64,000 nt of DNA, from contig CP004371.1 of the NCBI GenBank assembly GCA_000597885.1, positions 5,274,001 to 5,338,000 of the forward strand, given 5' to 3'. Under the pieces are notes generated by a model, which worked only from the letters and a program-made list of their open reading frames with translations, was not told the DNA's origin and did no database searches. This document shows, piece by piece, positions 449-30,772 of the stretch; within the stretch, counting starts at the first letter, position 1; every line of letters begins with the position of its first letter. A program made the translations under genes and the position numbers. This stretch comes from Flammeovirgaceae bacterium 311 (GTDB taxonomy: Bacteria; Bacteroidota; Bacteroidia; Cytophagales; Cyclobacteriaceae).

Positions 449-1313
449 TTAAGCAGCTAAAGGTTTAGATTTTAGTAGTTGCTCCATTTGTGCAGGTGTA
501 CGATATCCCAGGCTGGAATGTAGCCTTGTTCTATTGTACCAGATTTCGATAAATTCGAAGATTTCCATAGCGGCAGCCTTCTGGTTCATGAATTTGTTTC
601 CATAGATACATTCTGTTTTCAGGGTCTTAAATCGGACCGCCGAAGCGGAAACTCTCTGCCACGGCATTGTCCCAGCAATTGGCTTTTCTACTCATGCTCT
701 GGCGGATCAAGGGGGTAACCCTAAGCTCTTTTCTAAACTCATCACAGGCGTACTGCACCCCTCTGTCAGAGTGGAAGATAAGCTTCTGAACAACGGGTCT
801 GTTTTTTAAAGCCATCTTCAAAGCAGCTATAGTAGTGTCTTTAGCTTTCATGGTATCGCTTAAGGCCCAGCCGACCACTTTTCTATCTGCTAAATCAAGG
901 ATTACCGTAAGATAAAGCCATCCAGCTAAGGTTCTTATATAGGTGATATCCGACACCCATGCCTGGCCTGTGGCAGCTGCTGTAAAGTTACGGTCCAGCA
1001 GATTTTCACTCACCGCAAAGCTATGCCTGGAATCAGTTGTAGTCTTGAACCTTCTTTTCATTTTGGCCCTGATGTTTGCCTGCTTCATTAATCTGGCTAC
1101 TCTGGGCCTGGAGACATACACATGTTTGCCTTTCAGGGCTTTGTATATCCTGGGGCTACCATAGCGTTGCCTACTTTTCTTATGCTCCTGCCTGATCAAA
1201 GATAGTATCTGTTGATTCTGCTGCTTTCTCTTTGATGCAGGTCGTTTCAACGAAGCATAGTAACCGCTTTTGCTCACTTTAAAGACTTTGCACATCCTCT
1301 CAACGGGAAACAT
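449..1313 (-). pseudogene. IS3 transposase orfB (DDE integrase), disrupted
   Basis: This is the integrase subunit of IS3-type transposition. The N-terminal part reads as a standard orfB: an HTH_21-like region (KSGYYASLKR, RYGSPRIYKAL), then the rve core with first Asp in WVSDITYIRT, second Asp in FHSDRGVQYAC and the CWDNAVAESF segment holding the third acidic residue. After AESF the frame is broken; the other frame resumes at once with KTLKTECIYGNKF and ends with the usual YNRTRLHSSLGYRTPAQME tail. Removing 16 nt at 632-647 restores one continuous protein of about 280 residues, which shows this is an insertion into a once-intact gene. Confidence 0.85.
632..647 (-). repeat. GC-rich 16-nt micro-insertion in IS3 orfB
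   Basis: The plus-strand block is TCGGACCGCCGAAGCG. On the minus strand, including one flanking base, it reads CCGCTTCGGCGGTCCGA, that is CCGC and GCGG arms around a TTCG tetraloop. Deleting it rejoins the codons of AESF and KTLKTE, so its boundaries are set within a base or two by the protein reading. It belongs to the CCGCNNCGGCGG group also seen at 3067, 14257, 22046 and 30704. Confidence 0.75.
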
Positions 1314-1327
1314 TGAGCTATGAGAGC

Positions 1328-1657
1328 TTATAAACCTGTAGACTTCCCGTCTCCCCTGGAGAAGATGCTTATTGCCTTTTTTAAGATGCGGGGGGCCGCC
1401 CCATCCCTTTCCATCTCCACATCTCTAAGCTGCTTCTGGAGCCCTGCTATCTCTGCTTCTTCTGGAGTATGTTTGGGCTTGCCATGGCCAGAGAAGCTGC
1501 CTTCTCCCTTATCTAAAAACTCCTTACGCCAGCGGGAAATGAGCTCCGGGCGAATTCCAAGCTCCGCTGCCAGTTCACTGAAGTTCTCTCTGTTCTGGCT
1601 GAGCTCCACGGTCATCAGCTTAAACTCCTTATCAAATTTTCTTCTTTCTTTGGACAT
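1328..1657 (-). CDS. IS3 transposase orfA (HTH) with 5-residue insertion
   Basis: This is the DNA-binding subunit of the IS3 element, 109 residues. It opens with the family's usual start (SKERRKFDKEFKLM), followed by a helix-turn-helix region (ELAAELGIRPELISRWRKEF) and a C-terminal coiled coil. Family members typically read MERDILKKAISIFS near the end; here five extra residues, GAAPR, split MERD from ILKKAISIFS. They are encoded by the 15-nt GC-rich block at 1388-1402. The frame survives, but the insertion lies in the leucine-zipper-like segment needed for orfA/orfB contact, so function is doubtful. Confidence 0.8.
   Translation of the reverse strand: MSKERRKFDKEFKLMTVELSQNRENFSELAAELGIRPELISRWRKEFLDKGEGSFSGHGKPKHTPEEAEIAGLQKQLRDVEMERDGAAPRILKKAISIFSRGDGKSTGL
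1388..1402 (-). repeat. GC-rich 15-nt micro-insertion in IS3 orfA
   Basis: The plus-strand block is GCGGGGGGCCGCCCC, placed between codons for Asp and Ile of the conserved MERD/ILKK junction. It has self-complementary GGGGC and GCCCC-type arms. It is similar to the block at 1719-1734 rather than to the CCGCNNCGGCGG group, so there may be more than one sequence class. Confidence 0.65.
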
Positions 1658-1718
1658 AGCGTTAAGTTATTGGTTTTTCGCTTAACTTATCGTCCACTCA
1701 AATGTAGCAGCTCCAGTT

Positions 1719-1734
1719 CGGGGCGGCCGCCGCC
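1719..1734. repeat. GC-rich palindromic block between IS3 and IS110
   Basis: CGGGGCGGCCGCCGCC lies just outside the IS3 end in otherwise AT-rich sequence. It contains the palindrome GCGGCCGC and resembles the 15-nt insertion at 1388-1402. The host sequence is non-coding here, so insertion cannot be proved by a reading frame. Confidence 0.4.
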
Positions 1735-1740
1735 TTTAGC

Positions 1741-1956
1741 TTTGGGAGGTAGTACAAAACCAAGATAGGCAGTAGTATCTTTAAAACATACCGGCTTAGG
1801 TGAACTATGGCCGCCGCTGGATAAGATCCTACCCGCGATTTAGTACCTAAGCCGGTTGATAAGGACAAGCTTCAAATAGAAATTCAGGCTTAAGGCCTAA
1901 TAGCAAGGTTTTGAAAGTGTCCCTATCCTTTTTGATTTATCCTTAAAAGTGAAGTT
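1741..1956 (+). ncRNA. candidate IS110 bridge RNA region (structured leader)
   Basis: The non-coding stretch directly upstream of the IS110 transposase contains a perfect 12-bp inverted repeat, ACCGGCTTAGGT at 1790-1801 and ACCTAAGCCGGT at 1845-1856, enclosing a 43-nt loop with a small inner hairpin (GGAT-AAG-ATCC). IS110 elements are known to express a bridge RNA from the non-coding end flanking the transposase, with stem-loops whose internal loops pair to target and donor. Location, length and structure fit; the pairing loops and the element boundary have not been established, and part of the loop (1809-1820) resembles the GC-rich micro-insertions. Confidence 0.4.
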
Positions 1957-2961
1957 ATGAAATTTTCTTTTTTCATCGGGGTAGACATTAGCAAAAAGAC
2001 CTTAGACTTTGCTGTAAGAGATCACTACAAGCTTATTTTTCATCTAAAGGTGGAGAACTCTGCGGCTGGCCTTAAAGAGTTCAAAGCCGAATGTAAAGCA
2101 CATGAGGTAGAATTAAAACACAGTCTTTTGTGCTGTGAGCATACTGGCCTTTACAGTCAATGCCTGCTTAGTCTGCTTTCTGGAGATGACTGTTCCCTGT
2201 GGCTGGAATCTTCCCTTCGAATCAAACGCTCCATAGGATTGCAAAGAGGTAAGAATGATAAAGTAGATGCCATCAGGATCAGTGAATATGCCTTCCGCTA
2301 TGCTGATAAGGCCCTGCTCTGGCAGCCAGAGCGAGAAGTGCTACTGGAGATAAAGCAGCTTGTTTCGTTGAGGAAAAGGCTTCTTAACGCCAAGAATGCA
2401 CTGAAAGTGCCTTTAGGAGAATTAGCTGGTTTCCAAAATAAGAAGCTTCTAAAAGAGCTGGAAAAACTGAATAAAAAGCCTGTTGAGGCACTGGAGAAGC
2501 AGATCACAACAATTGAGAAAAAGATCAGGAGTCTTATCAAAGAAGATGAAACGCTAAGCCAGCTTTTTGCATGGGTTACTTCTGTGGACGGCGTAGGTGA
2601 GGTGATTTTCTGGGAGGTTATCACTACCACTAACGAGTTTAAAATCTTTAAATGCCCCAGGAAATTTGCCTGCTACGCAGGCGTATCTCCATTTGAGCAT
2701 TCTTCAGGAACTAGCATTAGGGGGAAGACCAGGGTCAGCCAGTTTGCTAACAAGAAAATGAAAAAACTCTTCCATATGGGAGCGATGGCAGCCATATGTA
2801 AAGACGGAGAATTAGCCAACTACTACTTCAGGAAAGTAGAAGAAGGAAAAAGCAAAATGGCTGTACTTAATGCCATTAGAAACAAGATCATTCACAGAAT
2901 CTTTGCCTGCGTCAGAGACAACAGAAAATATGAAAAAATCTATACGACTGCGCTTGTTTGA
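1957..2961 (+). CDS. IS110-family transposase
   Basis: This 334-residue protein has the two-part IS110 layout. The N-terminal RuvC-like DEDD domain starts with FIGVDISKKTLDFAV (first Asp), followed by CCEHTGLY with the Glu and GKNDKVDAIRISEYA with the Asp pair. A coiled-coil middle follows (about residues 120-200). The C-terminal Tnp domain has VDGVGEV, CYAGVSPFEHSSGTS with the candidate serine, and a basic KKMKKLFHMGAMAA helix. Length is typical and no stop or frameshift is visible, so it may be active, unlike the other mobile genes here. The ATG at 1957 follows the structured leader. Confidence 0.9.
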   Translation: MKFSFFIGVDISKKTLDFAVRDHYKLIFHLKVENSAAGLKEFKAECKAHEVELKHSLLCCEHTGLYSQCLLSLLSGDDCSLWLESSLRIKRSIGLQRGKNDKVDAIRISEYAFRYADKALLWQPEREVLLEIKQLVSLRKRLLNAKNALKVPLGELAGFQNKKLLKELEKLNKKPVEALEKQITTIEKKIRSLIKEDETLSQLFAWVTSVDGVGEVIFWEVITTTNEFKIFKCPRKFACYAGVSPFEHSSGTSIRGKTRVSQFANKKMKKLFHMGAMAAICKDGELANYYFRKVEEGKSKMAVLNAIRNKIIHRIFACVRDNRKYEKIYTTALV

Positions 2962-3066
2962 ACCATAGAAATCGCGGATGAAGATCTCTGAACCTTTTTT
3001 ATTAATTTTTATAACAGTTCCAAAGCTAGGATCAGTAAGGAAAATTTTTTGAATGCAGAGTTCTTG

Positions 3067-3082
3067 CGGTCCGCCGCTGCGG
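3067..3082 (-). repeat. GC-rich 16-nt micro-insertion in IS256 remnant
   Basis: The plus-strand block is CGGTCCGCCGCTGCGG; its complement contains CCGCAGCGGCGG. Removal joins the codons of EFL to KQFKD, as in intact IS256 transposases. It is a member of the CCGCNNCGGCGG group. Confidence 0.7.
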
Positions 3083-3154
3083 AAGCAGTTCAAGGACTCT
3101 GGCGAGTTTGCATCCTTCATGGAAGAACTCTATGTCAGGGTCACCGAAAACCTG

Positions 3155-3173
3155 TCTGCCGCAGGTAGGGATG
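3155..3173. repeat. 19-nt insertion of a second type in IS256 remnant
   Basis: TCTGCCGCAGGTAGGGATG sits between TENL and LEGELDSHLGYEK; deleting it restores the family reading. It contains the short palindrome CTGCCGCAG and is flanked by CTG on both sides, which could be a 3-bp target duplication or chance. Its sequence is unlike the CCGCNNCGGCGG class. Confidence 0.55.
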
Positions 3174-3388
3174 CTGGAGGGTGAGCTAGACTCACACCTG
3201 GGGTATGAGAAGTATTCTTCAGAAGGGAGGAACAGTGGGAACTCCCGCAATGCTTAGACTTCTAAAAAGCTTAAAAGCAAGTTCTGGCCCTTTGGGAAAT
3301 CACTAAAAAATGGACACAGCCCCATCGCAATTGGGCTATCATCCTGAACCAATTCTTGAGCATCTACGAAGACAGATGCAGGCTTTAA

Positions 3389-3796
3389 TCAATTCAGAAT
3401 TTTGATTAACTTCATAATGCACGCCCGAAGAGGACGCAGGTGCTGCCGGGCCGCGCAGGCTGGGGAGCAACCTGCCAGCAATAGGGTAGGCCAAGTGGAA
3501 TGTAACCTGACCTGCCAATCAGGACTGGTTCTTCATCTCTCATTCTGCTTGCCATATGGCTAAGAAAACCCAATCATCGTTTAGCTGAATCTTCATTTAC
3601 ACAGTTTTCAAGACACTGTCTAAACAAGATAGACTTCGAATCCATCGAGTGGAGAATTCTAGGCAAAAACTTCATTCTTCAACCTAAGGATGTCAAACAG
3701 AACAATGGCATTTCCTATAGGTTATTGAACAATAAAGATCTTTGTTCCTTGCTTCAGCGGAGGACTAAGAGCTGATTGTATATAACATACCTGTTA
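3389..3796. other. unassigned sequence between IS256 remnant and CNNM gene
   Basis: About 400 bp without a convincing gene. A GC-rich imperfect hairpin lies at about 3438-3473 (CAGGTGCTGCC against GGGGAGCAACCTG). From about 3595 to 3774 one plus-strand frame is open without a start and reads IDFESIEWRILGKNFILQP; I do not recognise it, and it may be the end of another decayed gene. Confidence 0.4.
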
Positions 3797-4879
3797 ATGA
3801 CGCTATTAATTTTTTATCTTCTGTTAGCTTTGGTGGTCTCATTCCTATGTTCCATTCTGGAGGCATCGCTGCTAAGCTTTACCCCTTCCTATATAGAATC
3901 CCTAAGTGAAGAAAAACCCCAGCTAAGTGCGCAGCTTCGTAAGCTTAAAGATAAAGTTGACCAACCTCTGGCAGCCATTCTTTCCCTTAATACCATTGCA
4001 CATACCGTTGGAGCCGCAGGTGTGGGCGCACAGGCGGCCATAGTATTTAGTAGTGTAAGTACAGGCATTATATCTGGTATATTAACGATTCTTATTCTGG
4101 TGTTTTCTGAGCTAATTCCTAAATCCTTAGGAGCAAAGTATTGGAGACAGCTTGCGTTCTTTACGGCCAAAACGTTAAAAATCCTGATATGGGCCATGTA
4201 TCCCCTGGTGTTGCTTTCGAACGTGATCACTAAGATGATGGGGGGCAGTGCCCATGGCATGGTTGTTAGCCGTGAGGAGCTATCTGCGATGGCAGATATA
4301 GGTCAGCAGGAAGGAGTGTTCGCTGAAAACGAAACCCGTATCATAAAAAACCTAATAGCTTTTCAGGAAATCCAGGTTAGGGATGTGATGACCCCTCGCA
4401 CGGTAGTTGTGATGGCAAACAGCCAACTAACACTCAAGGAAGTATATAATGATAAAAGCTTTCTTCGCTTTTCCCGTATCCCTGTTTATGAAGGTAACCG
4501 GGATAACATTCTTGGGTATATGCATAAACATGAACTACTGGAAAAGCTAGCTGATGACCAGCACCACCTGCTAGTTAAAGATATTGTGAGGAATATACTT
4601 ATTGTACCTGATCACCTGAGCATACCGGTGGTTTTTGAGCGTTTGATGGAAAAGCGTGAACACATTGCCCAGGCCGTAGACAGCTATGGTGGTTTGACGG
4701 GAGTAGTCACCATTGAAGATGTAATGGAAACCCTGTTGGGAATAGAAATCGTTGATGAATTTGATAAGAGTCATGACATGCAGGAGTATGCCCGCCAAAA
4801 ATGGCATGAACGAGCGTTGAAGCTGGGACTGATAGAAGAAAGTGATACGCAAGATAGATTACGACCAAGAAAACAATGA
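3797..4879 (+). CDS. CNNM/CBS-domain membrane protein (CorC/HlyC-like)
   Basis: This is an inner-membrane protein of the CNNM (DUF21) family, whose members are linked to divalent cation export. An N-terminal CNNM domain of about 170 residues has four hydrophobic segments and the family pattern FLCSILEASLLS, LNTIAHTVGAAG and SELIPKSLGAKYW. A CBS pair follows (VRDVMTPRTVV, FSRIPVYEGNRDNILGY, and GGLTGVVTIEDVMETLLG with DEFD). The usual C-terminal CorC_HlyC domain is missing, which is common in short family members. I chose the ATG at 3797 because the TTG at 3776 adds seven residues ahead of the membrane segment. It appears monocistronic. Confidence 0.85.
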   Translation: MTLLIFYLLLALVVSFLCSILEASLLSFTPSYIESLSEEKPQLSAQLRKLKDKVDQPLAAILSLNTIAHTVGAAGVGAQAAIVFSSVSTGIISGILTILILVFSELIPKSLGAKYWRQLAFFTAKTLKILIWAMYPLVLLSNVITKMMGGSAHGMVVSREELSAMADIGQQEGVFAENETRIIKNLIAFQEIQVRDVMTPRTVVVMANSQLTLKEVYNDKSFLRFSRIPVYEGNRDNILGYMHKHELLEKLADDQHHLLVKDIVRNILIVPDHLSIPVVFERLMEKREHIAQAVDSYGGLTGVVTIEDVMETLLGIEIVDEFDKSHDMQEYARQKWHERALKLGLIEESDTQDRLRPRKQ

Positions 4880-4974
4880 AAAGGGATGATTTTTTAGATT
4901 ATGAAATATTTCTACTGATACCCCTTTTAAACTTTCCTTCAACATTCAAATGGTCTTCAGTCGGTGAACTATGT

Positions 4975-5601
4975 TCACATAAAGTATTTGCCCATCCCAA
5001 GGGTGAAGATCATAACTCCATAGAAGAAATGTTCAATACTCACAACTAGCAGGGAGTTGTACTTTGTATAGGTGTGGCTGAAAATAAGGCTTACCAGAAA
5101 AGCCCCTACGATCGCAACTCCATTTCCAAAGACAATGTGAGCGAATCCGAACAGTAAGCTGTTTACAAAAATGGAGGTACGCTGGCTGGCAAATAAGTCT
5201 CCATAACGCTGATAGTACCAGGTTCTGTAGACAATTTCTTGTGGAATAACTGACCAAAAAGGATACAAGCTTATTGTGAACAGATAACGCTCTAAATTCT
5301 CCTGAGGCAGGTAGTAAAGCAGCTCATGATTAAAAATTTAAACAAAGCAGAAGACTAGCAGCGACACCAAAAGAAACCTTCCAATTAGTTTTTTCCAGTT
5401 AACCGGCACCCTCCTTATGAATTGTCTGTTATCAAACCTTTTACTCCTATACAGCAGTACAAGGAATAGAATTGAAATTGAGACTAAAGGAATCAAGATG
5501 TAGATACCAGATAAGTATTATTTGGTAAACAAAGGAACTGCTATGTAAACTAGCAGTAGCTCTGATATCTTAATTCCTTTGTTTTGATACCAGATTACTT
5601 T
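4975..5601 (-). pseudogene. CPBP-family membrane protease pseudogene
   Basis: Read on the minus strand, one frame gives VIWYQNKGIKISELLLVY, several hydrophobic segments, then PQEIVYRTWYYQRY, SLLFGFAHIVFGN and SIEHFFYG, the motif order of CPBP (Rce1-like) intramembrane proteases. The frame holds two in-frame TAA stops (5518-5520 and 5338-5340), and two stops lie just upstream of 5601 with no start codon. The first motif has Gln-Glu in place of the usual Glu-Glu. The last 97 residues (from an ATG at 5268) could still be translated, but they lack half the fold. An intact CPBP paralogue is at 20936-21751. Confidence 0.75.
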
Positions 5602-5695
5602 TTATTATCAATCCGCTCGGGCTTTTGCTTTTCTGATCTAGCAGTGTTCAATGGAGTAGTAAGTGAAGATAACGTGATAAAACAGTTTTAAACAG

Positions 5696-7300
5696 TCATG
5701 GAGTGTCAAGAAAGAGTGCCAGGTGCTGAATGACTGTTTTCTTTTCCAAGCCTCCTGCCAAGGCACCAGTTGTAACGCCAACAGTACTGATAAAGGCTGC
5801 CAGCCGTACCTTATCACTAAAGAGCACCTCTGGCTTATCCAGTGTAGGCCAGGTAGTAATCAGATCTTCCGGGAATACATATAGTTCAATCACCATCATC
5901 AGTGCGCCAATCATCAGAAACAACCCAATGCATGCCAGCAGAATGCTTAGAAAGATCACCACATTGGCAATCGCCAGATGTTCTGTGATTACCCGCTTTT
6001 CTTTTCGGGGCATAAATAGCGATTGAATCTTGATCAGGTAAAAGGATGCCCCCAGTATGCTGGCTACAGCAAAGAAAATGGCAGTCTGGTTGTTCATGTT
6101 CAGCCCTACATCCCAGATCTCTGCTGTAAAGATCAGCAACAGGCTAGGTGCTACTGCAGCAGTAGCCAGACCTGGCAAGGAAAGCGGCAGCAGAATTGCC
6201 CAATTCCTGAGCAGTGGAGCAAGCACAGCTTTGGGATGCTTGATAGCCATCAAGAAGTGGAAAATAAGACTTTCAAGGCCTGTGCCTCCACGCAATTCCC
6301 TTTCCGGCAAATGCTCCACGCCTTTCCGCAGAGCAGTACGCTCTGCTTCGGTAAAGCTTGGGACCTCTTTCCTGTTTTCGCGGAAGACAAACGGAGCCAT
6401 CACTTTGCTCTTGTTGCGCTTTGTATGGTCCAGCCCACTCAGGTGTCCCATCAAATGCAGCAGCAGGGCGGCAGCGTTGGTGCGGACTGCTTCCGCGCTA
6501 CGTGTACGAATAGGCTTGCCTCGTGGGCTTGCCGTTAGCCTATGGGTAGAAACTACCACCACATGCGAAACGGGAGAGGCCAGGCCTGCCTCTACCCGAT
6601 TTCTTCTTGAGAGTAGCGCTACATCAGTGACAACTATTACAATATCATAAGGCCCTTCCGCCATTCTCATTGTTGCGGCATCCAGAAAGTCAGAGGGTTC
6701 CCGGGTATCATCTGAGCTTAAGGAAAAGGGCTCGACGATATGGAACGTCCATGGAATGTCCGTGGCAGATTCCATCTCTGGCTTGGTATCATGCACCAGA
6801 TGTTCTATAAAGGGCTGTATTTCACTGGGATCCAGGCTTGGTCTATGCGCCAGCAAAACTCCTACATGTATTTCCGGAGCTGGCTTTTCTCCCTGTGCCT
6901 CACGTAATTCGTTAAACAAGCGCTTTGAGGAGGTTAAGCCTCTGACAAAAGTAGTCGTTGTTGCTACTCTGCTAAGCTGGAGTACCATTATAGCCCGTAA
7001 TAGCCTAAATGCTCGAAAAGCAGGAACAAACAGGGCGATAAGTGTAAGCCAGTTCCGCTTTACATAGTCCAGCTTTCGGGGAGCCAGCACAAACTTGATC
7101 AGAAATTCCAGAATAAAAGCTCCCCATATGATCATTACCCAACGCTCCTGCGCCTGCGATAAACCGCTTAGCAGTTCTTCTACAAAAAGCCACAGCCAAA
7201 CAATGGATAGAATAAACATGGGACCTTCCAGCCAAGCTTCCAGCTTGTAGAGCAGGCGGAACCGCTTTTGTTTTGCATGTTCAGATGCAGCTTGTTCCAT
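5696..7300 (-). CDS. membrane protein with voltage-sensor-like N-terminus and metzincin-like motif
   Basis: This 534-residue protein does not match a family I can name. Residues 25-112 look like a voltage-sensor or ion-transport domain: hydrophobic helices (GPMFILSIVWLWLFVEEL, IIWGAFILEFLIKF) followed by an S4-like segment with regular arginines (FRAFRLLRAIMVLQLSR, 95-111). A soluble domain (about 140-330) contains HLMGHLSGLDH at 282-292, matching the HExxHxxGxxH zinc site of metzincins but with Leu for the catalytic Glu, and a Met-turn-like VMAPF at 300-304. The C-terminal 350-534 has about four more membrane segments. It may be a catalytically dead zinc-binding sensor; that is inference. 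Confidence 0.7.
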   Translation of the reverse strand: MEQAASEHAKQKRFRLLYKLEAWLEGPMFILSIVWLWLFVEELLSGLSQAQERWVMIIWGAFILEFLIKFVLAPRKLDYVKRNWLTLIALFVPAFRAFRLLRAIMVLQLSRVATTTTFVRGLTSSKRLFNELREAQGEKPAPEIHVGVLLAHRPSLDPSEIQPFIEHLVHDTKPEMESATDIPWTFHIVEPFSLSSDDTREPSDFLDAATMRMAEGPYDIVIVVTDVALLSRRNRVEAGLASPVSHVVVVSTHRLTASPRGKPIRTRSAEAVRTNAAALLLHLMGHLSGLDHTKRNKSKVMAPFVFRENRKEVPSFTEAERTALRKGVEHLPERELRGGTGLESLIFHFLMAIKHPKAVLAPLLRNWAILLPLSLPGLATAAVAPSLLLIFTAEIWDVGLNMNNQTAIFFAVASILGASFYLIKIQSLFMPRKEKRVITEHLAIANVVIFLSILLACIGLFLMIGALMMVIELYVFPEDLITTWPTLDKPEVLFSDKVRLAAFISTVGVTTGALAGGLEKKTVIQHLALFLDTP

Positions 7301-7592
7301 TTACAATCAGGGGTACATTTTGTATACTACAGGTCTTCATCTGTATGTATTTGTTACTTTGTCTAGAAAAAGCATTGGCAAGCTGATTTGTTTGGTAGCC
7401 CTTGTTAGGCTTGTAAAAGATGAAGACAAACAAAAGCAGTAGCAGCGTAAGTTATAAAGGTGTAATTGCAGCAAGACAGTAAGAACATTAATGTAACTGC
7501 CAGCCACACTTGTATTCAGTTGCGGGGTGTCTAATGTCATTAGGAGTGTGTTCTTTCTCTATTGCTTGCAGCATCCAGAAAATCGCGTTGTA

Positions 7593-8597
7593 ATGAAAGT
7601 CTTCAAGCAAATCCTCTTCTACTTCATCATTTTTGTAAGTGTACTGGTGATACTAGCAAGCCTGCTCTCCCTAATCTATGACCTGGCTTACTGGTATTCA
7701 AAGGTCGTGGATTTCCCAAGGCTGCAGTACCTGATCGTAGCGCTTATATGTCTTTTGATCTTTGTTCTATTGAACAAAAAGTGGGGGTTTGCTTCGGTGT
7801 TTCTGGCCGTAGGTTTGTTAACTGCTATCACCATACACGCTACACGGATATTACCTTATATAGTAGGAGATAAACCAGTTCCCGATGTAGCGCAAGAGGC
7901 AATAAGCCAGGAAAATAGTGTGGGGATTCTCATTGCCAATGTGCTAATCACGAATAAAGAGGCGGCAGACTTTCTAGAGATTGTAGAACAAACAGATCCC
8001 GACATGCTGCTAGTCATGGAAGTGGACCAATGGTGGGTAAACCAACTTCAAGGCCTGAAAGTAGAATATCCATATATTATGGAATATCCCCTGGAAAATG
8101 CCTATGGAATGGCACTTTACTCCAGATTTCCCCTTAAAGATACTGAAATCAAGTTCTTTAACCATGATGATGTGCCTTCCTTTCATGCTAAAGTAATACT
8201 TCCATCAGGTGAGGCCTTTAGATTTCATGGGATGCATCCAGTAGCACCAGTACCCAGTGATAAATATCCTGATAATGTAGGCGAAGAAGAAGTGGGCTTA
8301 TTGAAAGTTGGACAACTGGTTGCCGCAGAGTCACTACCTTCTATTGTTGCAGGTGACTTTAACGACGTATCCTGGTCGCACACCTCCAGATTGTTTGGTG
8401 ATGCTGGTAGCTTAAAGAATGTACGCCTGGGCAGGGGGCTTTACAATTCTTTCAACGCTAAATCACTGATCATGCGCTGGCCTCTGGATCATTTCTTTGT
8501 TACCAGGGAGTTTGCACTGCTGGAATTAGAGCGCTTGCGGAAGTTCAACTCTGACCATTTTCCCATGTTTGCCAAGCTGGTACTGCAAAAGCAGTAA
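7593..8597 (+). CDS. endonuclease/exonuclease/phosphatase-family membrane protein
   Basis: Three N-terminal hydrophobic segments (FYFIIFVSVLVILASLLSLIY, YLIVALICLLIFVLL, VFLAVGLLTAITI) anchor a periplasmic or extracytoplasmic EEP-fold domain. Visible EEP motifs are the VLITNKEA start in place of the usual N-rich strand, MLLVMEVDQWW with the metal-binding Glu, HGMHPVAP, IVAGDFNDVSWS with the Asp-Asn pair, and the terminal FNSDHFPMFA with the catalytic Asp-His. Members of this membrane-bound group are widespread and of unknown substrate. The ATG at 7593 is preferred to the ATG 66 bp upstream because it begins directly before the first membrane segment. Confidence 0.85.
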   Translation: MKVFKQILFYFIIFVSVLVILASLLSLIYDLAYWYSKVVDFPRLQYLIVALICLLIFVLLNKKWGFASVFLAVGLLTAITIHATRILPYIVGDKPVPDVAQEAISQENSVGILIANVLITNKEAADFLEIVEQTDPDMLLVMEVDQWWVNQLQGLKVEYPYIMEYPLENAYGMALYSRFPLKDTEIKFFNHDDVPSFHAKVILPSGEAFRFHGMHPVAPVPSDKYPDNVGEEEVGLLKVGQLVAAESLPSIVAGDFNDVSWSHTSRLFGDAGSLKNVRLGRGLYNSFNAKSLIMRWPLDHFFVTREFALLELERLRKFNSDHFPMFAKLVLQKQ

Positions 8598-8675
8598 CCC
8601 TTTTTTCACTCTACAGTTATCTTTGTTGAAACTATTTTGGTCAGCTTACAGTATTTTTTCAACTAAAGCACCAGT

Positions 8676-8834
8676 ATGCGTTTGATTACAGTTCGGGCTC
8701 CCAAGGGACTCGGCCAAAGAGTCGCGGAAATCGCTATTCAGTCAGGTATCCAGCAGGTGAGTTATCAGGAAGCAAAAGCCTTACGTTCAGATAACAGCAG
8801 TTCGGTACAGGATGTAATCTGCTCTTACCAGTAA
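8676..8834 (+). pseudogene. DUF389 N-terminal fragment
   Basis: A 52-codon reading frame, ATG 8676 to TAA 8832-8834. It starts MRLITVRAPKGLGQRVAEIA and continues SGIQQVSYQEA, resembling the regulatory N-terminal domain of DUF389 membrane proteins (compare the full gene at 17861-18796). The membrane domain is absent; the sequence becomes AT-rich intergenic DNA. It may be the leftover of a deleted gene or a stand-alone small protein. Confidence 0.4.
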
Positions 8835-11445: not shown

Positions 11446-11454
11446 ATCTTTCTA

Positions 11455-13763: not shown

Positions 13764-13780
13764 AAAGCGACTACTAAAAA

Positions 13781-14052: not shown

Positions 14053-14066
14053 CGCTCCACGCCGGA
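14053..14066. repeat. GC-rich 14-nt micro-insertion in IS3 remnant
   Basis: CGCTCCACGCCGGA separates the codons of DNGSE from FISKALD. Like the block at 632-647 read on its coding strand, it starts CGCT and ends in GA directly before TTT. It is less palindromic than the others. Confidence 0.5.
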
Positions 14067-14160: not shown

Positions 14161-14195
14161 AGCGGTCCCAGGCGGGCAGCCCACCTGGGACCGCT
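14161..14195. repeat. long near-perfect hairpin in IS3 remnant
   Basis: Two 17-nt arms (AGCGGTCCCAGGCGGGC, 14161-14177; GCCCACCTGGGACCGCT, 14179-14195) pair at 16 of 17 positions around a single A. There is no T-run, so it is not a standard terminator. It begins directly after the codons of AYIE, where the integrase reading is lost, which suggests it was inserted or created with the deletion. Confidence 0.7.
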
Positions 14196-14256: not shown

Positions 14257-14273
14257 CCGCAGCGGCGGCCGCG
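14257..14273 (+). repeat. GC-rich block, CCGCNNCGGCGG class, at IS3 remnant end
   Basis: CCGCAGCGGCGGCCGCG follows the last recognisable codons (PEEAIER). Its 12-nt core is identical to the complement of the core at 3071-3082 in the IS256 remnant, although the flanks differ. Confidence 0.65.
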
Positions 14274-22045: not shown

Positions 22046-22061
22046 CGGGCCGCCGGCGCGG
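22046..22061 (-). repeat. GC-rich block, CCGCNNCGGCGG class
   Basis: CGGGCCGCCGGCGCGG on the plus strand; the complement has core CCGCGCCGGCGG. It lies in the 511-bp gap 21752-22262, where both strands carry short open frames I cannot identify, perhaps remains of a decayed gene. Confidence 0.55.
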
Positions 22062-24593: not shown

Positions 24594-24633
24594 GGCTAAA
24601 TGGTTATATAGGTGAATGAATTAATTCAGAAGT

Positions 24634-24738
24634 CTATAAAATATACCGCCCTGTGAGTATGCCCAGTATCAACATGGTGATGCCTGCGATCACCAGTATG
24701 ATGATCTTTTTAACATCGGGCTGTTGCTGCTTTTTCAT
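24634..24738 (-). CDS. 34-residue single-pass membrane peptide
   Basis: The ATG at 24738 opens MKKQQQPDVKK, then one hydrophobic helix (IIILVIAGITMLILGIL) and the tail TGRYIL. It sits between the histidine phosphatase and M61 genes on the same strand, separated by 40-70 bp, and is likely co-transcribed. Polar start plus one helix is typical of short bacterial membrane proteins; no function is known. Confidence 0.45.
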   Translation of the reverse strand: MKKQQQPDVKKIIILVIAGITMLILGILTGRYIL

Positions 24739-24809
24739 GGTACCTTATTTAGATATGAGAGAAGTCGTAGCTGATGATTTACAGAAGGGCCTGTGCCGGT
24801 TTGCCTGTT

Positions 24810-25367
24810 CTACTTTACCACCAGTTTTAGGGTGGAAGATGCTCCTGAGTTGCTTTTACTGATGATGAAAACTTTGTCATACTCCTGCTCTGCGAGTGTT
24901 GTGAAGTTTTGCGTCCGGGTAAAATAGGTTAAGAGCACAGGTACTGTATTGGAGTGTGCGCAGATCACAATTTTGCCTCCTGTATTACTTTCCAGCATAG
25001 CCTTAAAGGCTTTTTCATCGATGGGGGAGTACTCCTGAATGCTGATTTTTTGCGCTGCAGCCAAAGGCATAACGGTTTGCTTTGTGCGCTGGTAAGGGGT
25101 TGCGTAAACAGCCGTAATTGCTTCCTGGCTTAGCAGTTCAGCAATTTTTTGGGCTCTTTTTAAACCTGCTGCCGATAAGCCGGGGTAACTGTTCCCTGCT
25201 TCATCTGCTTTTTCTGCATGCCTGATGACTATAATGGTGGTGATCCCTTCTTCCTGTTGGGCATAGGCCAGTGAGCCGGCAAAACCTGCCCACAGCATTA
25301 ACACGGCTAACAGGAGGGGGCCTCTCCATCCAAATGGCGTCCGGGACAGATAAATACTTTTGGGCAT
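24810..25367 (-). CDS. exported histidine phosphatase family protein
   Basis: This 185-residue protein has an N-terminal signal or anchor segment (GPLLLAVLMLWAGFAGSLAYAQ). The phosphoglycerate-mutase fold is shown by IIVIRHAEKAD (catalytic His50), the second Arg in ATPYQRTKQTV and the distal His in VICAHSNTVPVLL. Branch-2 SixA-like phosphatases of this size remove phosphate from small molecules or proteins; an exported one probably acts in the periplasm. It is the first gene of the minus-strand run ending with M61. Confidence 0.85.
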   Translation of the reverse strand: MPKSIYLSRTPFGWRGPLLLAVLMLWAGFAGSLAYAQQEEGITTIIVIRHAEKADEAGNSYPGLSAAGLKRAQKIAELLSQEAITAVYATPYQRTKQTVMPLAAAQKISIQEYSPIDEKAFKAMLESNTGGKIVICAHSNTVPVLLTYFTRTQNFTTLAEQEYDKVFIISKSNSGASSTLKLVVK

Positions 25368-25479
25368 TAATTTCTATTAAATTTTCCTTACTCAACCCCA
25401 AAATAAAGCCATTCATCATGTATACACTTGTTGATTGTTGCTCATTATTTCAACTTGAGCTTATTAATATGCTTTTAGT

Positions 25480-26424
25480 ATGCCTGCACAAAACATCTAC
25501 TATATCAATGACATGGCGCAGAAAACCCCTGCACAGGTGCCATTAAACAGGATGATTTTCTCTTCCTTTAAAACCTTTGAGACTGAAAGGGAAAGCTTTG
25601 GCTTTTCTATCAAAGCACCCCTAAAGGGAAGGGAAAGATATATTGTAGGAAAGAAGGCTTACAGCGTAGGCCCCGGAGAGTATTTTCTTGCAGGACACGG
25701 ACAACTGGTAGGCTACGACCTGAAGCACAAAAGTGCCATAGATGGATTTTGTGTGTACCTGGATGAACTGCTCGTCCGCAAAGCCCTAAGCTCCTATTTA
25801 CACAAAGAAGAGCGCTTATTGGAAGGACTTGATGAGGTTGTGAAGAACGAGCTAAAGCAGGGAAAATATATGTTCGAAAAAGATTTCTTTGCTATTCAGA
25901 TGCAGGCTTTAGCAAAGTACAGGGATGAAGAAATAAGTTCAGAAGAACTTAACCAGCTGTTTTATGCGCTAAGCCTGGAGACAGGCAGAATCATGCACCA
26001 GCACCACCAAAGAAAAGGCAGGCTTAGCAGTCGTAAAAAATGCACCAGGGAAGAAATCTACCTGCGACTGCAAACTGCAAAGGAGTTTTTGCATGCCCAG
26101 CTGCATTTACCCCTTAACATTCAGGAGGTAGCGAAGCACGCTTCGTTTTCCGAGTTTCATTTTATTCGTTGCTTTACCTCATGCTTTGGCTCCTCTCCCT
26201 ACCAGTACCTTACCCAATTACGGGTGGAAAAGGCAAAAGAGTTGATCGTGAACCAAAACTATCCATTGGCAGAGGTGGCAGCCATTTGTGGTTTTAGTGA
26301 TGAATGTACCTTCAGCAAGGTGTTTAAAAAGCAGGCGGGCATACCCCCGGGCATGTACAGGAAATTACATACAAAGCATTTATATGTGGTTGCAAAGCCT
26401 CTCCATACACAGGTGTTCTCTTAA
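25480..26424 (+). CDS. AraC-family transcriptional regulator
   Basis: This 314-residue regulator has a sensory N-terminal half (about 1-195) containing a cupin-like VGKKAYSVGPGEYFLAGHGQL segment. The C-terminal AraC DNA-binding domain (about 205-305) has both helix-turn-helices: LNIQEVAKHASFSEFHFIRCFTSCFG and YPLAEVAAICGFSDECTFSKVFKKQAGIPPGMYRK. The ligand is unknown. It is divergent from the phosphatase gene, sharing a 112-bp upstream region, and could control that gene or the S8 protease downstream. Confidence 0.85.
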   Translation: MPAQNIYYINDMAQKTPAQVPLNRMIFSSFKTFETERESFGFSIKAPLKGRERYIVGKKAYSVGPGEYFLAGHGQLVGYDLKHKSAIDGFCVYLDELLVRKALSSYLHKEERLLEGLDEVVKNELKQGKYMFEKDFFAIQMQALAKYRDEEISSEELNQLFYALSLETGRIMHQHHQRKGRLSSRKKCTREEIYLRLQTAKEFLHAQLHLPLNIQEVAKHASFSEFHFIRCFTSCFGSSPYQYLTQLRVEKAKELIVNQNYPLAEVAAICGFSDECTFSKVFKKQAGIPPGMYRKLHTKHLYVVAKPLHTQVFS

Positions 26425-26583
26425 GTTTCCCTTTATATGAGAAGCATTTCTTCTGTTTTAGTAAAGCATCATTTACAGTTTCTCATCGGTCATCCCCTCT
26501 TTTCTGCGACTATATAAAACTGGTTTTTTGGCTGGTATTTTCTCTTGTTCTTCACCTTAGTCTTCAACAAAACTAAAATAATC

Positions 26584-28512
26584 ATGAAAAGGGGATTGAT
26601 AATAGCAGTGTTCGCATTGGGGGTAATGGTAAACACAGCTTTGGCTCAGGACAAACAGCAAATTACCAGTGCAGACCAGTTGCCCAGGCGGACAATAGCC
26701 CTTAGCGGCAATGTAATGGATATTTATAACGATGATGAGCTGCTGAAGAAGCTTGCGGACCAGATCTCAAAAAACCTGGAAAACGATCTGGCTACCTATG
26801 ACATACAAGACAAAGCCACTTTAAAAGGGTATTATTCCACACTTATGATGCTGGACATTTGGGAGGGCAGGGATAGAGACGCATTAGAGAAGGTAAAACT
26901 TCTGGTAGCGCTTGAGGATAAGGAGGAAGAGAAAACAACCACCGGCCTAACTATTACTTCTTACATGAAGACCCGTGCAGAAGTGGGTACAGTCGTGGAT
27001 GATAATTTCAGGAAAGCCTTTGCCAAAAATTATGCAGAGGCAGTGCAATCCGTACCGGCAGCATACCGCAGTAAGTTTGCAGAAAAAACCAGGGCCACCC
27101 TTAGTATGATGAATCCTGAAGCTACCAAATCAGTTCTGGCTACCCAGCTACAGCCTTATATCGACAATGGTGGAGGACAGGTGCCGGAAGGGGTTCCGCT
27201 ATCATTGATTTCCACAAAAAGCTCTTTTGCTTTGATGGTGCCCATCAAAGAGGAAATGCTTAAAGTATTGGAGCAGCATACAGCGGTTGCAGAACAAAAA
27301 GCACCACTTGCCAATATATGGGCAGAAAGAGATGTTCAGGTCAAAGCCACTGCGAAAGCAGCACCTATAAAAGTAGCGGTGTGGGATACCGGAATCGATA
27401 CGGGGCTCTACCCCAACAAGCTGTTTGTAAATGCAAAAGAAGTTGCAGGCAATGCAATTGATGATGATAAAAATGGTTATGTTGATGATGTGCACGGCAT
27501 TGCCTTCGATTTTAAATCGGAAAGAACAACAGGATCACTGCTGAAAGAGCGTGAACCGGTACATAAGATTGCTGATCTGCAGCGCTGGGCAAAAGGTTCT
27601 TTTGATATGCAGTCTGGTATATCGAGCCCGGAGGCTTTGGAATTACAACAAAAAGTAGCCGGTTTAAAAGCAGATGAAGTGATTACATTCCAGGAAGACC
27701 TTAGCTGGTACAGTGTGTATAGTCATGGTACCCATGTGGCCGGCATCGTGGCAGAAGGAAACCCTTTTATCCGGATGATGTACGCCCGCTTAAGCTATGA
27801 TACAGGTTTCAAACCTGAATGCCCTACTGAAGAAAGACAGGCCGCTGTAGCAGAAATGTATAAGGATGTAATTGCCTATTTTAAAAAGAATGGCGTAAAA
27901 GTGGTGAACATGAGCTGGCGGTATAGTGCAGGTGGTTATGAAAGCATTTTAACGATGTACGGGATAGGGAAGGACCAGGAAGAACGGAAGGCAATGGCGC
28001 AGCAATGGTTTGCCAGGGAGAAAAAAGCCATGCAGGAGGCTATGAAATCGGCGCCCGAGATCCTGTTTGTGTGCGGATCGGGCAATGAAAACAATGACGC
28101 CAACTTTATGGAGTATATTCCGGCCAGTATTGATCTGCCAAATGTGCTGACGGTAGGTGCAGTAAACAGCTTGGGCAAAAGAACCTCTTTTACTACAGAA
28201 GGGAAAAGTGTGGATCTGTATGCCAATGGGTATGAAATTGAAAGCTTTGTACCGGGTGGCGACAGGATTAAATTCAGCGGTACTTCTATGTCTTCACCAC
28301 AGGTAGCCAATGCGGCAGCAAAAATAATGGCACTGAACCCCCGGCTTAAACCGGCACAGGTGGCCGGTATTTTACTCGAAACTGCAACTCCTTCAGAAGA
28401 AACTGCACAAATCAAATTGCTCCATACCCAAAAGGCACTTGAAAAGGCCCTGCAGTTGCGCAAAGACTATGATGGCAACCTGAGCCAGGTGATACAAACG
28501 GCCGGAAAATAG
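26584..28512 (+). CDS. exported S8 (subtilisin-like) serine protease
   Basis: This 642-residue secreted protease has signal peptide about 1-21 (IIAVFALGVMVNTALAQ). A helical propeptide-like region (about 25-255) precedes the catalytic domain. The triad is Asp268 (VAVWDTGIDTG), His381 (YSHGTHVAGIV) and Ser568 (FSGTSMSSPQVANAAA); the oxyanion Asn lies in VCGSGNENND. The spacing between Asp and His is long (about 113 residues), with a DDDKNGYVDDVHG calcium-site-like loop. The ATG at 26584 is preferred over 26545 because it starts the signal peptide. No sorting domain is visible. It is upstream of a LytS/LytTR pair with a 68-bp gap. Confidence 0.85.
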   Translation: MKRGLIIAVFALGVMVNTALAQDKQQITSADQLPRRTIALSGNVMDIYNDDELLKKLADQISKNLENDLATYDIQDKATLKGYYSTLMMLDIWEGRDRDALEKVKLLVALEDKEEEKTTTGLTITSYMKTRAEVGTVVDDNFRKAFAKNYAEAVQSVPAAYRSKFAEKTRATLSMMNPEATKSVLATQLQPYIDNGGGQVPEGVPLSLISTKSSFALMVPIKEEMLKVLEQHTAVAEQKAPLANIWAERDVQVKATAKAAPIKVAVWDTGIDTGLYPNKLFVNAKEVAGNAIDDDKNGYVDDVHGIAFDFKSERTTGSLLKEREPVHKIADLQRWAKGSFDMQSGISSPEALELQQKVAGLKADEVITFQEDLSWYSVYSHGTHVAGIVAEGNPFIRMMYARLSYDTGFKPECPTEERQAAVAEMYKDVIAYFKKNGVKVVNMSWRYSAGGYESILTMYGIGKDQEERKAMAQQWFAREKKAMQEAMKSAPEILFVCGSGNENNDANFMEYIPASIDLPNVLTVGAVNSLGKRTSFTTEGKSVDLYANGYEIESFVPGGDRIKFSGTSMSSPQVANAAAKIMALNPRLKPAQVAGILLETATPSEETAQIKLLHTQKALEKALQLRKDYDGNLSQVIQTAGK

Positions 28513-28580
28513 TAACAGCACCAGCCAGCCGGCTTGCTGCCTGATTCTATCAATGCATAACCTTAATAACAACGTTTAGC

Positions 28581-29672
28581 GTGAAAAAAACGCAGATTTA
28601 CTGGATGGGGCAGCTGTTGGGCTGGAGCGCAATGGCTTTACGGGAGGTGATTAACTACACCTTCTTTATTGTGGGGAAGTTTAACTGGGATTATGTTGTT
28701 TTTTTCTTTCTGCATGTGGCATTTGGAATAGGTGTTTCTCACCTCCTGCACCTGTGGCTAAGAAAAAGTAAAGTTTTCGAAAAGTCTGCACAGAAAATTG
28801 TGTCTATTGGAATCGGGCTTGTGCTGGGCTTTGCCTGTATACTGGGCCTGTTTTCGCTGGTGTTGTCAATTTATATGGATAGTGAAGCATCTCCGGATGT
28901 GCCCAATATTTTAGTGTATTACCTGGGCCTTAGCATGAACTGGATACAGGTTACCACACCCTGGATTTTGTTTTACTTCCTGTACAGGATTATGGAGCAG
29001 AACAATACTATCCGGAATGAAAAATTGCAGGCCATTAATCTGGTAAAGACTTCGGAGCTGGAATTGCTTAAATCACAGTTAAACCCCCACTTCCTGTTTA
29101 ATGCTCTGAACAGCATCAAGGCCCTGATATCTATTGAGCCTGAAAAGGCACGGGGAGCGCTCATTCAGCTAAGCGAGCTGCTACGCTTCTCGCTCAATTA
29201 CGAAAAGCAGACGCTGATCAGGCTTAGCCATGAAATGGAAGAGGTCGAAAAGTACCTTGAGCTGGAAAAGATCCGCTTCGATGATCGTCTGCAATATGAA
29301 CTGGTGGTTGATAAAACTGCAGCAAACGCGATGATTCCTCCTGCCCTGATTCTTACCCTGGTGGAGAATGCAATCAAACATGGAATATCCCACCAGATAT
29401 GGGGCGGAAAAGTAACGGTAAAGGCAAGGCAGCAGGATGCTAAGCTGGAGGTTGAGGTTAGCAATCCCGGCTATTATCAGCCCGTTGCAGAAAACAGGAT
29501 TGGCTTGAAGAATGTACAGGAAAGACTTGCCGGGCTCTATGGAAACAAAGCTAGTTTTACCATTAGGAATGGAAAGGAGCATACGGTCATTGCCAGGGTT
29601 TCGATAGAGGGCGAAAGAAAATCCAGACAAGCCGGAATAGATGCCACAGCGCTGTCTATTGAGATGCTGTGA
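28581..29672 (+). CDS. LytS-type sensor histidine kinase
   Basis: This 363-residue kinase has four N-terminal membrane helices (about 10-135), a short coiled linker, and a His_kinase domain with the phospho-acceptor in KSQLNPHFLFNALNSIKALI. The HATPase_c part shows LILTLVENAIKHG (N box) and RIGLKNVQERLAGLYG (G box). There is no extracytoplasmic sensor domain. The frame starts at a GTG (28581). It precedes the LytTR regulator at 29714 by 41 bp and clearly forms a two-component pair with it. Confidence 0.9.
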   Translation: MKKTQIYWMGQLLGWSAMALREVINYTFFIVGKFNWDYVVFFFLHVAFGIGVSHLLHLWLRKSKVFEKSAQKIVSIGIGLVLGFACILGLFSLVLSIYMDSEASPDVPNILVYYLGLSMNWIQVTTPWILFYFLYRIMEQNNTIRNEKLQAINLVKTSELELLKSQLNPHFLFNALNSIKALISIEPEKARGALIQLSELLRFSLNYEKQTLIRLSHEMEEVEKYLELEKIRFDDRLQYELVVDKTAANAMIPPALILTLVENAIKHGISHQIWGGKVTVKARQQDAKLEVEVSNPGYYQPVAENRIGLKNVQERLAGLYGNKASFTIRNGKEHTVIARVSIEGERKSRQAGIDATALSIEML

Positions 29673-29713
29673 CCTAAAAATGCTAATTTAAAGATCTGTA
29701 AAACCTTCAAGTG

Positions 29714-30439
29714 ATGACTCAACTTTCCGCCATTATTATAGATGATGAGCCCCTGGCTATTTCAGAACTCGCCCTGATGCTGAAAGTCCATCCCATTTGC
29801 AATATCATCGCTACTGCTCAAAATTCCGGAGTAGCGGTAGATCTGGTGAATGAAAAAAAGCCGGACCTGATATTTCTGGACATCAACATGCCCGGTAAGG
29901 ATGGCTTTGAACTGCTGGAAGAGCTTGAGCACATACCACAGGTTATTTTTGTAACAGCTTATGATGAGTTTGCCATCAAGGCATTTGAATTCAATGCACT
30001 GGATTACCTGCTCAAGCCCATTAACCCACACAGGCTGGCAGAGGCGCTGCAGCGTTCCCAAAAAGCGATAGCACAAGCCAAAGCAGGCAATGGGGAGCAG
30101 CAGCTAAGCCTGGATAAGCGAATATTTGTGAAAGACGGTGATAAATGCTTTTTAGTGCAGCTTTCGGATATTTACCTGATTGAAAGTAACGGCAACTATT
30201 CCCAGATCTTTTTTAAGGATCAAAAGCCTTTGATGCACAGATCACTGACCTACCTGGAAGAGCGCCTGCCATCATCCAGTTTCTTCAGGGCAAACCGCAA
30301 ACAGATCATCAATCTCAACTTCATCAAAGATATTCAGCCTTACTTCAGCAATACCCTGCTGGTGACCCTCCACGGCGGGAGTAAAATTGAAATTAGCCAG
30401 CGACAGACCATAAAATTCAGAGAGTTTAGCGGCATATAG
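29714..30439 (+). CDS. LytTR-family response regulator
   Basis: This 241-residue regulator has a receiver domain (1-120) with acidic pocket IIDDEP, phospho-acceptor Asp in LIFLDINMPGKDG, and Lys in YLLKPINPHR. The C-terminal LytTR DNA-binding domain (about 140-240) has KDGDKCFLVQLSDIYLIESNGNY and FFRANRKQIINLNFI. The partner kinase is immediately upstream. GTG at 29711 lies directly before the ATG at 29714; I use the ATG. Confidence 0.9.
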   Translation: MTQLSAIIIDDEPLAISELALMLKVHPICNIIATAQNSGVAVDLVNEKKPDLIFLDINMPGKDGFELLEELEHIPQVIFVTAYDEFAIKAFEFNALDYLLKPINPHRLAEALQRSQKAIAQAKAGNGEQQLSLDKRIFVKDGDKCFLVQLSDIYLIESNGNYSQIFFKDQKPLMHRSLTYLEERLPSSSFFRANRKQIINLNFIKDIQPYFSNTLLVTLHGGSKIEISQRQTIKFREFSGI

Positions 30440-30621
30440 GATCTTGCAGTCCTGATTAAGTGGAACAAACTGTCTGTTAGAATGGTGGCAGCTGCTTCTA
30501 CTCAAGCCCTGTCGTCATCGAGCTTAGGTTAGCTGTATGAAAATACAAAAAGGAAGACTTAATATGTTGACCAACATCAATCCAAAGCTACCGATGCGTA
30601 ACAAAGCGGTTACAAGAGACT

Positions 30622-30772
30622 ATTTTTTTAGAGAATGATCCGGATCTGCGTTACCTCCAAACCTTGCGGGGGTACAACAGCAGTTAAACAACAGGAATCT
30701 ATACCGCTACGGCGGGCAAGGTATGTCAATCAAACTGCTTTTAGAGTATATAATGCCTGTTAGGCGGTTTGG
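30622..30772 (+). pseudogene. tyrosine recombinase C-terminal remnant
   Basis: One frame reads FLENDPDLRYLQTLRG, YNSS, stop, TTGIYT, then a 15-nt extra block, then VCQSN. This matches the end of XerC/phage-type integrases (DLRYIQxLLGHxSSKTTxIYTHVS), including the catalytic Tyr region. The Lys codon of SSKTT is a TAA stop, the LGH His is Tyr, and the codon for the His after IYT is replaced by the GC-rich insert at 30704-30718. Only the C-terminal 50 codons remain. Confidence 0.6.
30704..30718 (+). repeat. GC-rich micro-insertion, CCGCNNCGGCGG class
   Basis: The core CCGCTACGGCGG (30704-30715) forms CCGC and GCGG arms around a TACG tetraloop. It falls between the codons of IYT and V of a recombinase remnant. 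The bases at the junction were altered or replaced, so exact ends are unsure. Confidence 0.6.

Follow-up and report, generated by a model that had tools for sequence, protein, structure and literature searches.

Rickettsia palindromic elements insert into genes, survive there in frame and are far longer than 16 nt. Elements of the IS200/IS605 group transpose as single strands, depend on the recognition of hairpins and insert 3' of a short target without duplicating it, and small dispersed repeats of cyanobacteria were reportedly described by Elhai et al. in 2008. The GC clusters of yeast mitochondria include GC42, which is 42 bp long; the abundant clusters have AG or ACT repeats on either side, which are read as target duplications (PMC4478555). 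The cyanobacterial repeats are about 20 bp long (PMC2884548), and CGTC-tagged repetitive extragenic palindromes (REPs) are recorded in Bacteroidetes (PMC3733652). Here we describe a family of 16-base GC-rich hairpin elements, referred to below as the 16-mer, in a 64,000-nucleotide stretch of the genome of Flammeovirgaceae bacterium 311 (the window, C1:5274001-5338000 of G000, which is a single contig of 6.67 Mb), where such blocks interrupt insertion sequence (IS) genes.

Like the Rickettsia elements, which are far longer, the 16-mer inserts into genes and has in-frame survivors, of which one case was confirmed here. It recalls single-strand transposition because it enters as a clean 16-base step, without duplication, with a dependence on its fold and at a short A-Y target. 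Insertion 3' of a short target, the lack of a duplication and the fold dependence are all shared with IS200/IS605; the differences are that the 16-mer contains no gene, is too small for distinct left and right ends and has no linked Y1 enzyme.

The yeast clusters are the best parallel. The two have in common short GC-rich palindromes, a sporadic presence, conserved stems, changes in the loop, merged double-length forms and an open amplification mechanism (PMC4478555); they differ in that the present elements are 14–16 nt long, lack a duplication, are bacterial and form two overlapping hairpins. Structure is conserved among copies of the 16-mer, as is asked of a GC cluster, through the co-variation of positions 6 and 17; the target duplication expected of a GC cluster or of a miniature inverted-repeat transposable element was absent at the 17 empty sites that we accepted. 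The nearest bacterial kind is that of the cyanobacterial small dispersed repeats, which are likewise very small, dispersed and proposed to be mobile (PMC3116915, PMC2884548), but which are about 20 bp long (PMC2884548), belong to cyanobacteria and are likened to our elements by description, not by sequence. The 16-mer, too, occurs as dispersed copies with pre-insertion sites. REPs and REPINs, with their RAYT transposases, are also short palindromes that form inverted pairs (PMC3116915, PMC3733652), whereas the 16-mer has no tag, is shorter and has no consistently neighbouring Y1 transposase. No description of the present elements was found in searches of open-access papers. What we would call new is the structural rule of two overlapping hairpins in very small, apparently mobile palindromes; the kind itself is already known.

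Copy number and empty sites

A sequence-only reading of the window had proposed a family of GC-rich hairpin blocks, five of which share a core, and had taken them for a very small mobile repeat. Five exact copies of the 12-base core CCGCNNCGGCGG are indeed present in the window, where nine matches with at most one mismatch compare with a shuffle mean of 1.06, nine being reached in none of 100 shuffles. With the reversed pattern in the same genome or genomes as the control for all pattern counts, the 12-mer is about 3-fold enriched genome-wide (47 against 16). The flanks of these matches revealed a longer shared core of 16 bases, CCGCNNCGGCGGACCG, and a variant of it in which the outer C-G pair is replaced by T-A. 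Exact copies of CCGCNNCGGCGGACCG number 20 against 0 in G000, 38 against 0 across the genus (three genomes) and 115 against 2 across the family (118 genomes), the carriers being 21 genomes in 16 of the 84 genera. These counts show that the family of blocks is real. A freer pattern, HCGCNNCGGCGNACCG, in which A, C or T is permitted at position 1 and any base at position 12, gave 31 matches against 0 in G000 and a list of 103 places in 31 genomes.

The search was extended over the phylum (395 genomes) with the pattern YCGCNNCGGCGRACCG. Three genomes of a sister family in the same order gave 113 against 0 (G483), 16 against 0 (G363) and 5 against 1 (G304), and genomes outside the order gave 0–7 matches each (for example 7 against 4 in G293 and 6 against 0 in G131). 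In some genomes the NN bases are uniform; those of G002 are AG in 14 of 14 copies.

That the blocks are insertions is shown, for 633–648 and 1388–1402 in an IS3 element and for 3067–3082 and 3151–3169 in an IS256 remnant, by copies that lack them. When the window IS3 is aligned with its relatives from Cesiribacter sp. SM1 and Pontibacter harenae, the only gaps in the aligned open reading frames (ORFs) are the 16- and 15-base GC-rich blocks, and two other IS256 copies in G000 lack the 16- and 19-base blocks of the remnant. The sequence-only reading stands on both points at which it could have failed; its very small mobile repeat is supported by a copy number far above the reversed control and by homologous IS copies without the blocks.

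An automatic test found an empty relative among the fetched loci for 21 of 83 sites, of which 17 were accepted after inspection. These include L080, which was kept although its partner has another base at position 1. The candidates L011, L018, L060 and L082 were discarded, the partner being poor or itself filled. Each species is represented in the collection by a single genome, and the empty copies are either paralogues or come from other species. At the accepted sites the net insertion is 16 bases, with one exception of 15 bases, which lies in a group II intron reverse transcriptase and preserves the reading frame. Neither a target-site duplication nor a loss of target bases was seen at these sites, and a one-base duplication is no explanation, because bases 1 and 17 differ at 633–648 and in the tRNA sites. 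Over 81 sites, position 0 is an A in 57 and position 18, the base after 17, is a pyrimidine in 62. Insertion is usually directly 3' of A-C or A-T, and the first base of the numbered unit, Y1, is usually the target base already present in the empty site (for example L248 compared with L080, L074 and L194).

Two overlapping hairpins

The main unit consists of 16 bases, positions 2–17 of YCGCNNCGGCGRACCGN, numbered Y1 C G C N5 N6 C G G C G R12 A13 C C G N17. Positions 1–4 can pair with 9–12 to form hairpin 1, with a 4-bp stem and a 4-base loop, which includes the target base Y1. Positions 6–9 can pair with 14–17 to form hairpin 2, again with a 4-bp stem and a 4-base loop, and the two hairpins are mutually exclusive. 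The single hairpin proposed from the sequence alone is right as regards a fold backed by co-variation, but a second hairpin overlaps the first.

In a hand count over the 103 HCGCNNCGGCGNACCG places, positions 1 and 12 are C-G at 58 and T-A at 29, six of the T-A cases coming from one tandem array, with 16 others. Positions 6 and 17 were left free in every search pattern. They pair at 64 of 78 de-duplicated sites against 48.1 expected, a value reached in none of 20,000 shuffles, and the count is 37 against 25.0 if Watson–Crick pairs only are taken (p 0.00035). An independent set of sites was fetched from G483 with a pattern free at positions 1, 6, 12, 13 and 17; here 79 of 92 sites pair against 38.2 expected, again reached in none of 20,000 shuffles. 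With duplicates removed, the figures are 51 of 61 against 25.3. Support for the alternative pairings 0-13, 5-18, 5-17 and 6-18 in G483 was absent or weak. The co-varying bases support the hairpins.

Apparent tandem arrays with one 16-mer per unit are found at G030:C1:2819391-2820031 (six places, 125-base spacing) and G009:C23:37981-39023 (seven places, spacing of about 172 bases).

Hosts, contexts and other inserts

The sequence-only reading had placed the blocks inside dead mobile genes. IS genes are indeed hit, but so are spacers and tRNA genes, and one copy is the in-frame insertion in the group II intron. From translated pieces, the contexts are IS1, IS3, IS5 and IS256 genes and the group II intron reverse transcriptase, the IS family names being our own reading except for those with Pfam matches. 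Of the 31 HCGCNNCGGCGNACCG places of G000, we read 14 as lying in IS genes and 2 in ABC genes; the other 15 are mostly spacer-like, in spacers built of short phrase repeats, and stop-to-stop frames of at least 60 codons span 11 of these 15 sites. In L406 and L408 the element precedes an apparent start. At one place, a 1.4-kb segment holds five blocks, inside IS1-like genes or next to them.

Among the tRNA genes, ARAGORN calls a tRNA-Arg(TCG), a tRNA-Asn(GTT) and a tRNA-Thr(TGT) that contain the insert and are 89 bases each; by our own reading the tRNA-Arg has it in the anticodon loop, the tRNA-Asn and the tRNA-Thr in the T arm. The 89-base tRNA-Thr of L332 adjoins an intact twin of 73 bases. 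Similarly, an insert-bearing tRNA-Arg(TCT) copy in L047 adjoins an intact one, and L074 contains two tRNA-like stretches, all with the insert at the same T-arm place; ARAGORN calls neither the insert-bearing copy of L047 nor the two stretches of L074. In the ABC ATPase paralogues L002 and L003 the 16-mer is in frame, read as RSAGA and RSAVA. These bases may be native rather than inserted, since a solved ABC transporter can be aligned over the segment with a difference of one residue.

A hand count among 100 listed places in G483 gave 12 inverted pairs with identical NN at most 150 bases apart. At 9 of 92 sites there the flanks carry inverted repeats that are 10 or more bases long, against 2 of 184 control positions. 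Inverted element pairs with identical NN sit on opposite arms of long spacer hairpins in this genome (for example L305, L321 and L357). The 16-mer is built into a larger spacer repeat, a hairpin ending in GCCAGATTG with a GC-rich tail, in L018, L092, L103, L106 and L109; partial forms occur in L012, L048, L049 and L060. This repeat has several copies, and each of the three genomes of the genus contains it. In the similar sequences L069, L070, L071 and L086 (G036, G030 and G101) the 16-mer precedes a possible ATG by a similar number of bases, unlike a random insertion.

The coordinates of the blocks in the window and of their host elements are given in Table 1. The block ends are within 1–4 bases of those in the sequence-only reading, with 3155–3173 corrected to 3151–3169.

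Table 1. GC-rich blocks in the window and the elements that carry them (coordinates are those of the window)
Feature	Coordinates	Strand	Context	Comparison or basis
Main-family insert CCGCTTCGGCGGTCCG, 16 nt	633..648	-	IS3 orfB, right after AES-F codons; frame shifts beyond	Empty copies L114, L115, L117, L121, L130
Second-kind GC-rich insert, 15 nt	1388..1402		IS3 orfA, in frame (length divisible by 3)	Missing from L114, L115, L204
Main-family insert CCGCAGCGGCGGACCG, 16 nt	3067..3082	-	IS256 transposase remnant, NAEFL/KQF junction	Missing from L213, L215, L217
Insert CCTGTCTGCCGCAGGTAGG, 19 nt	3151..3169		Same IS256 remnant as 3067–3082	Missing from L213, L215, L225
Insert GCCGGGCCGCGCAG, 14 nt	3445..3458		Close to 3' end of IS256 remnant; new relative to the sequence-only reading	Missing from L213, L215
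Candidate insert, 14 nt	14053..14066		Second IS3 remnant, NGSE/FISKALD	Reading frame alone
Main-family block, one base short	14257..14272	+	Near end of second IS3 remnant	Identical block, same place, in L102 (another species)
Main-family block CCGCGCCGGCGGCCCG	22046..22061	-		Pattern match only
Partial main-family block CCGCTACGGCGG	30704..30717	+	ACCG tail absent	Pattern match only
Host IS3 element	419..1715	-	Two inserts, no further reading-frame lesion seen	Pfam HTH_Tnp_1, rve, HTH_21
IS110-family element	1723..2977	+	Open 334-aa ORF without insert	
IS256 remnant	2978..3520	+	Three inserts; outer limits approximate	

The site at 3067–3082 is also occupied in L205 and L225, with an altered version of the insert in L228. 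The fetched loci gave no homologue that covers the candidate site at 14053–14066 and no empty copy for 14257–14272. The IS110-family element is present in three copies at 100% identity in G000, with a 95% copy in another species. IS110-related remnants of G002 (L211 and L212) contain several GC-rich inserts, against none in the ORF of the three identical copies. A GC-rich palindromic block lies at the IS3/IS110 junction (1719–1734), and a 33-base palindrome, GCGGTCCCAGGCGGGCAGCCCACCTGGGACCGC, lies within the second IS3 remnant (14162–14194).

To collect inserts of other kinds, all clean 12–40 nt gaps between fetched copies were harvested unguided. This gave 49 rows, of which 44 are at least 75% GC (about 32 distinct events among the 44 by hand count) and 5 are less GC-rich. 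Most of the loci had been drawn by the 16-mer, a bias which favours 16s but not other lengths. The 44 GC-rich gaps are 14 nt (14 rows), 15 nt (12), 16 nt (16) or 28 nt (2) long, with no other lengths. Both CCGGGCCCCGGCGG and CCGCCGGGCGGCCCC recur at four places with at most one mismatch, those of CCGCCGGGCGGCCCC (L195, L208, L212 and L082) being picked out among 12 rows that a shorter probe gave, and a 28-base palindrome recurs in L200 and L212. Two staggered 4-bp hairpins are found in 8 of 16 insert kinds, where shuffles give an expectation of 1.81.

An IS3 element at G000:C1:5241235-5242540 carries eight GC-rich inserts within 1.3 kb. All eight are common to a second copy, 98% identical, with which the similarity is confined to between the IS ends. 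A third copy (76%) has no insert across its covered part, which spans the first seven sites, the eighth lying beyond its end. Hand alignment against this empty copy gives net lengths of 14, 14, 16, 16, 15, 14 and 16; the gap harvest agrees on six of the seven, the second insert not being in its list. The sixth insert is 14 nt long in the first copy and 28 nt in the second. No other shared frame lesion was seen in the pair, which since its split has acquired 12 substitutions, two one-base frameshifts (one private to each copy) and at most one insert change; 8 of the 11 coding substitutions alter the amino acid (hand count). Sharing also extends across species: two IS256 copies have one rare insert in common, their coding pieces giving a dN/dS of 0.041 at a dS of 1.57, and by our own reading both carry a stop codon. 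The two-against-one site counts for the shared IS256 inserts are 62, 62 and 81.

Explanations of the inserts

We consider it probable, with some reserve, that these blocks are ultra-small, non-coding and non-autonomous mobile hairpin elements, moved in trans and surviving mainly in neutral DNA. The sequence comparisons strongly suggest that the 16-base hairpins are mobile. The fold would serve as the recognition signal of an enzyme acting in trans, most likely on single-stranded DNA. The copies found would then be those that landed where insertion harms little, in dying transposons, redundant tRNA genes and spacers, and rare in-frame copies would be retained in genes. Neutral survival explains most of the sites.

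Several observations weigh against mobile elements of this kind. No transposition event was seen in a comparison that rested on paralogues and other-species copies, and no enzyme could be linked to the element, 1 of the 55 Y1_Tnp loci scanned having a copy. The net length at L087 is 15, not 16. The 1-12 pair is broken at 16 of the 103 places, seven of them from one array, and in G483 this pairing is weakly above shuffles (69 Watson–Crick pairs against 63.1, a value reached by 270 of 20,000). The staggered arrangement of two hairpins is missing from 8 of the 16 insert kinds that were tested. Outside the order, YCGCNNCGGCGRACCG still exceeds its control (114 against 67, hand tally), so that part of the excess may be unrelated to movement. 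An IS3 pair at about 55% identity has the same variant at the same codon, which means that either the target rule exceeds A-Y or conversion acts.

In addition, slow neutral accumulation accounts poorly for two findings: the ancestor of the eight-insert IS3 pair took up all eight inserts without any further shared frame lesion that we saw, and the insert-sharing IS256 pair has a low dN/dS. Any one of a burst, recurrent insertion at preferred sites, short conversion or tolerance of the insert during expression could lie behind these. Recurrent insertion at preferred sites is supported, since the IS3 copies at about 55% identity share both site and variant.

We think a mutational process rather doubtful. 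Replication or repair would add short GC-rich palindromes via template switching or fold-back synthesis, with the 16-mer as the favourite product. It would fit the several unrelated insert sequences of near-identical length within the same IS copies, the insert that is 14 nt in one copy of an IS and 28 nt in the other, and the G483 copies that lie inside longer inverted repeats. However, a constant 16-mer in 16 genera, the co-variation of positions 6 and 17 and the uniform NN of G002 call for copying from existing copies.

It is improbable that the blocks are REP or REPIN elements moved by a RAYT-type Y1 transposase. They are short palindromes in many copies, with the inverted pairs of G483 noted above, and one G483 copy (C14; 1275–1291 of L402) has a Y1_Tnp gene (1501 onward) about 210 bases downstream of it, with a separate hairpin between. 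Such a single neighbour is not unlikely by chance, because G483 has 134 pattern matches in 6.4 Mb. When Y1_Tnp (PF01797) was sought in 6 and then 26 genomes, and loci of about 3 kb were fetched, the element was present in none of the first 25 loci (five genomes) and in 1 of the next 30. Conversely, G029 (11 copies) and G100 (6 copies) have no PF01797 match, and Y1_Tnp also occurs in genomes without an exact 16-mer (for example G003, G007 and G012). There is no GTAG or CGTC tag, the flanks of the 81 sites showing only the A at 0 and pyrimidines at 1 and 18, and a length of 16 nt (14 or 15 for other inserts) is below the REP size of 20–40 bp given in PMC3733652.

Host-directed inactivation of mobile elements by micro-insertion has, in our estimate, little likelihood. 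The dense clusters, eight inserts in 1.3 kb of one IS3 and five blocks within 1.4 kb at IS1-like genes, speak for it, but as 15 of the 31 places in G000 are elsewhere than in IS or ABC genes, and are mostly spacer-like, IS are not the sole targets. Moreover, the IS110 element with three identical copies has an insert-free ORF.

Very unlikely, too, is a bypass in which ribosomes skip the inserts or RNA loses them, so that the interrupted transposases stay active; the byps of Magnusiomyces mitochondria are a precedent. It draws on the two 98%-identical copies of the eight-insert IS3, which have every insert in common but, as far as we saw, no further frame lesion, and on the low coding dN/dS of IS256 copies that share an insert across species. 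If it were true, the eight-insert IS3 could still transpose, the IS256 with the insert would have stayed under selection, and we would be dealing with a bacterial counterpart of mitochondrial byps built of mobile two-hairpin cassettes. Against this, the in-frame copy in the group II intron is 15 and not 16 nt long, as expected if it is translated; the copies of the eight-insert pair differ by the 12 substitutions given above, 8 of the 11 coding ones nonsynonymous, and each has a private one-base frameshift; and both insert-sharing IS256 copies contain a stop codon. Insertion sites also recur in distant IS3 copies, so that shared sites need not mean shared descent.

Finally, chance matches in GC-rich sequence, or native gene bases, play some part for the 12-mer alone, given its control count and several matches in long open frames, but for the 16-mer this explanation is refuted by the family-wide count and the clean empty sites.

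Should the 16-base hairpins be mobile elements moved in trans, as we favour, they would be among the smallest mobile DNA units known to us, without coding capacity or room for two separate ends. Their inserts outnumber other frame lesions in the IS that were closely compared (the window IS3, the eight-insert IS3 pair and the IS256 in L107), and so bear on how IS die. With a target preference, co-varying alternative hairpins, multiple copies and empty sites all in hand, the spread of tiny palindromic repeats would become testable in bacteria.

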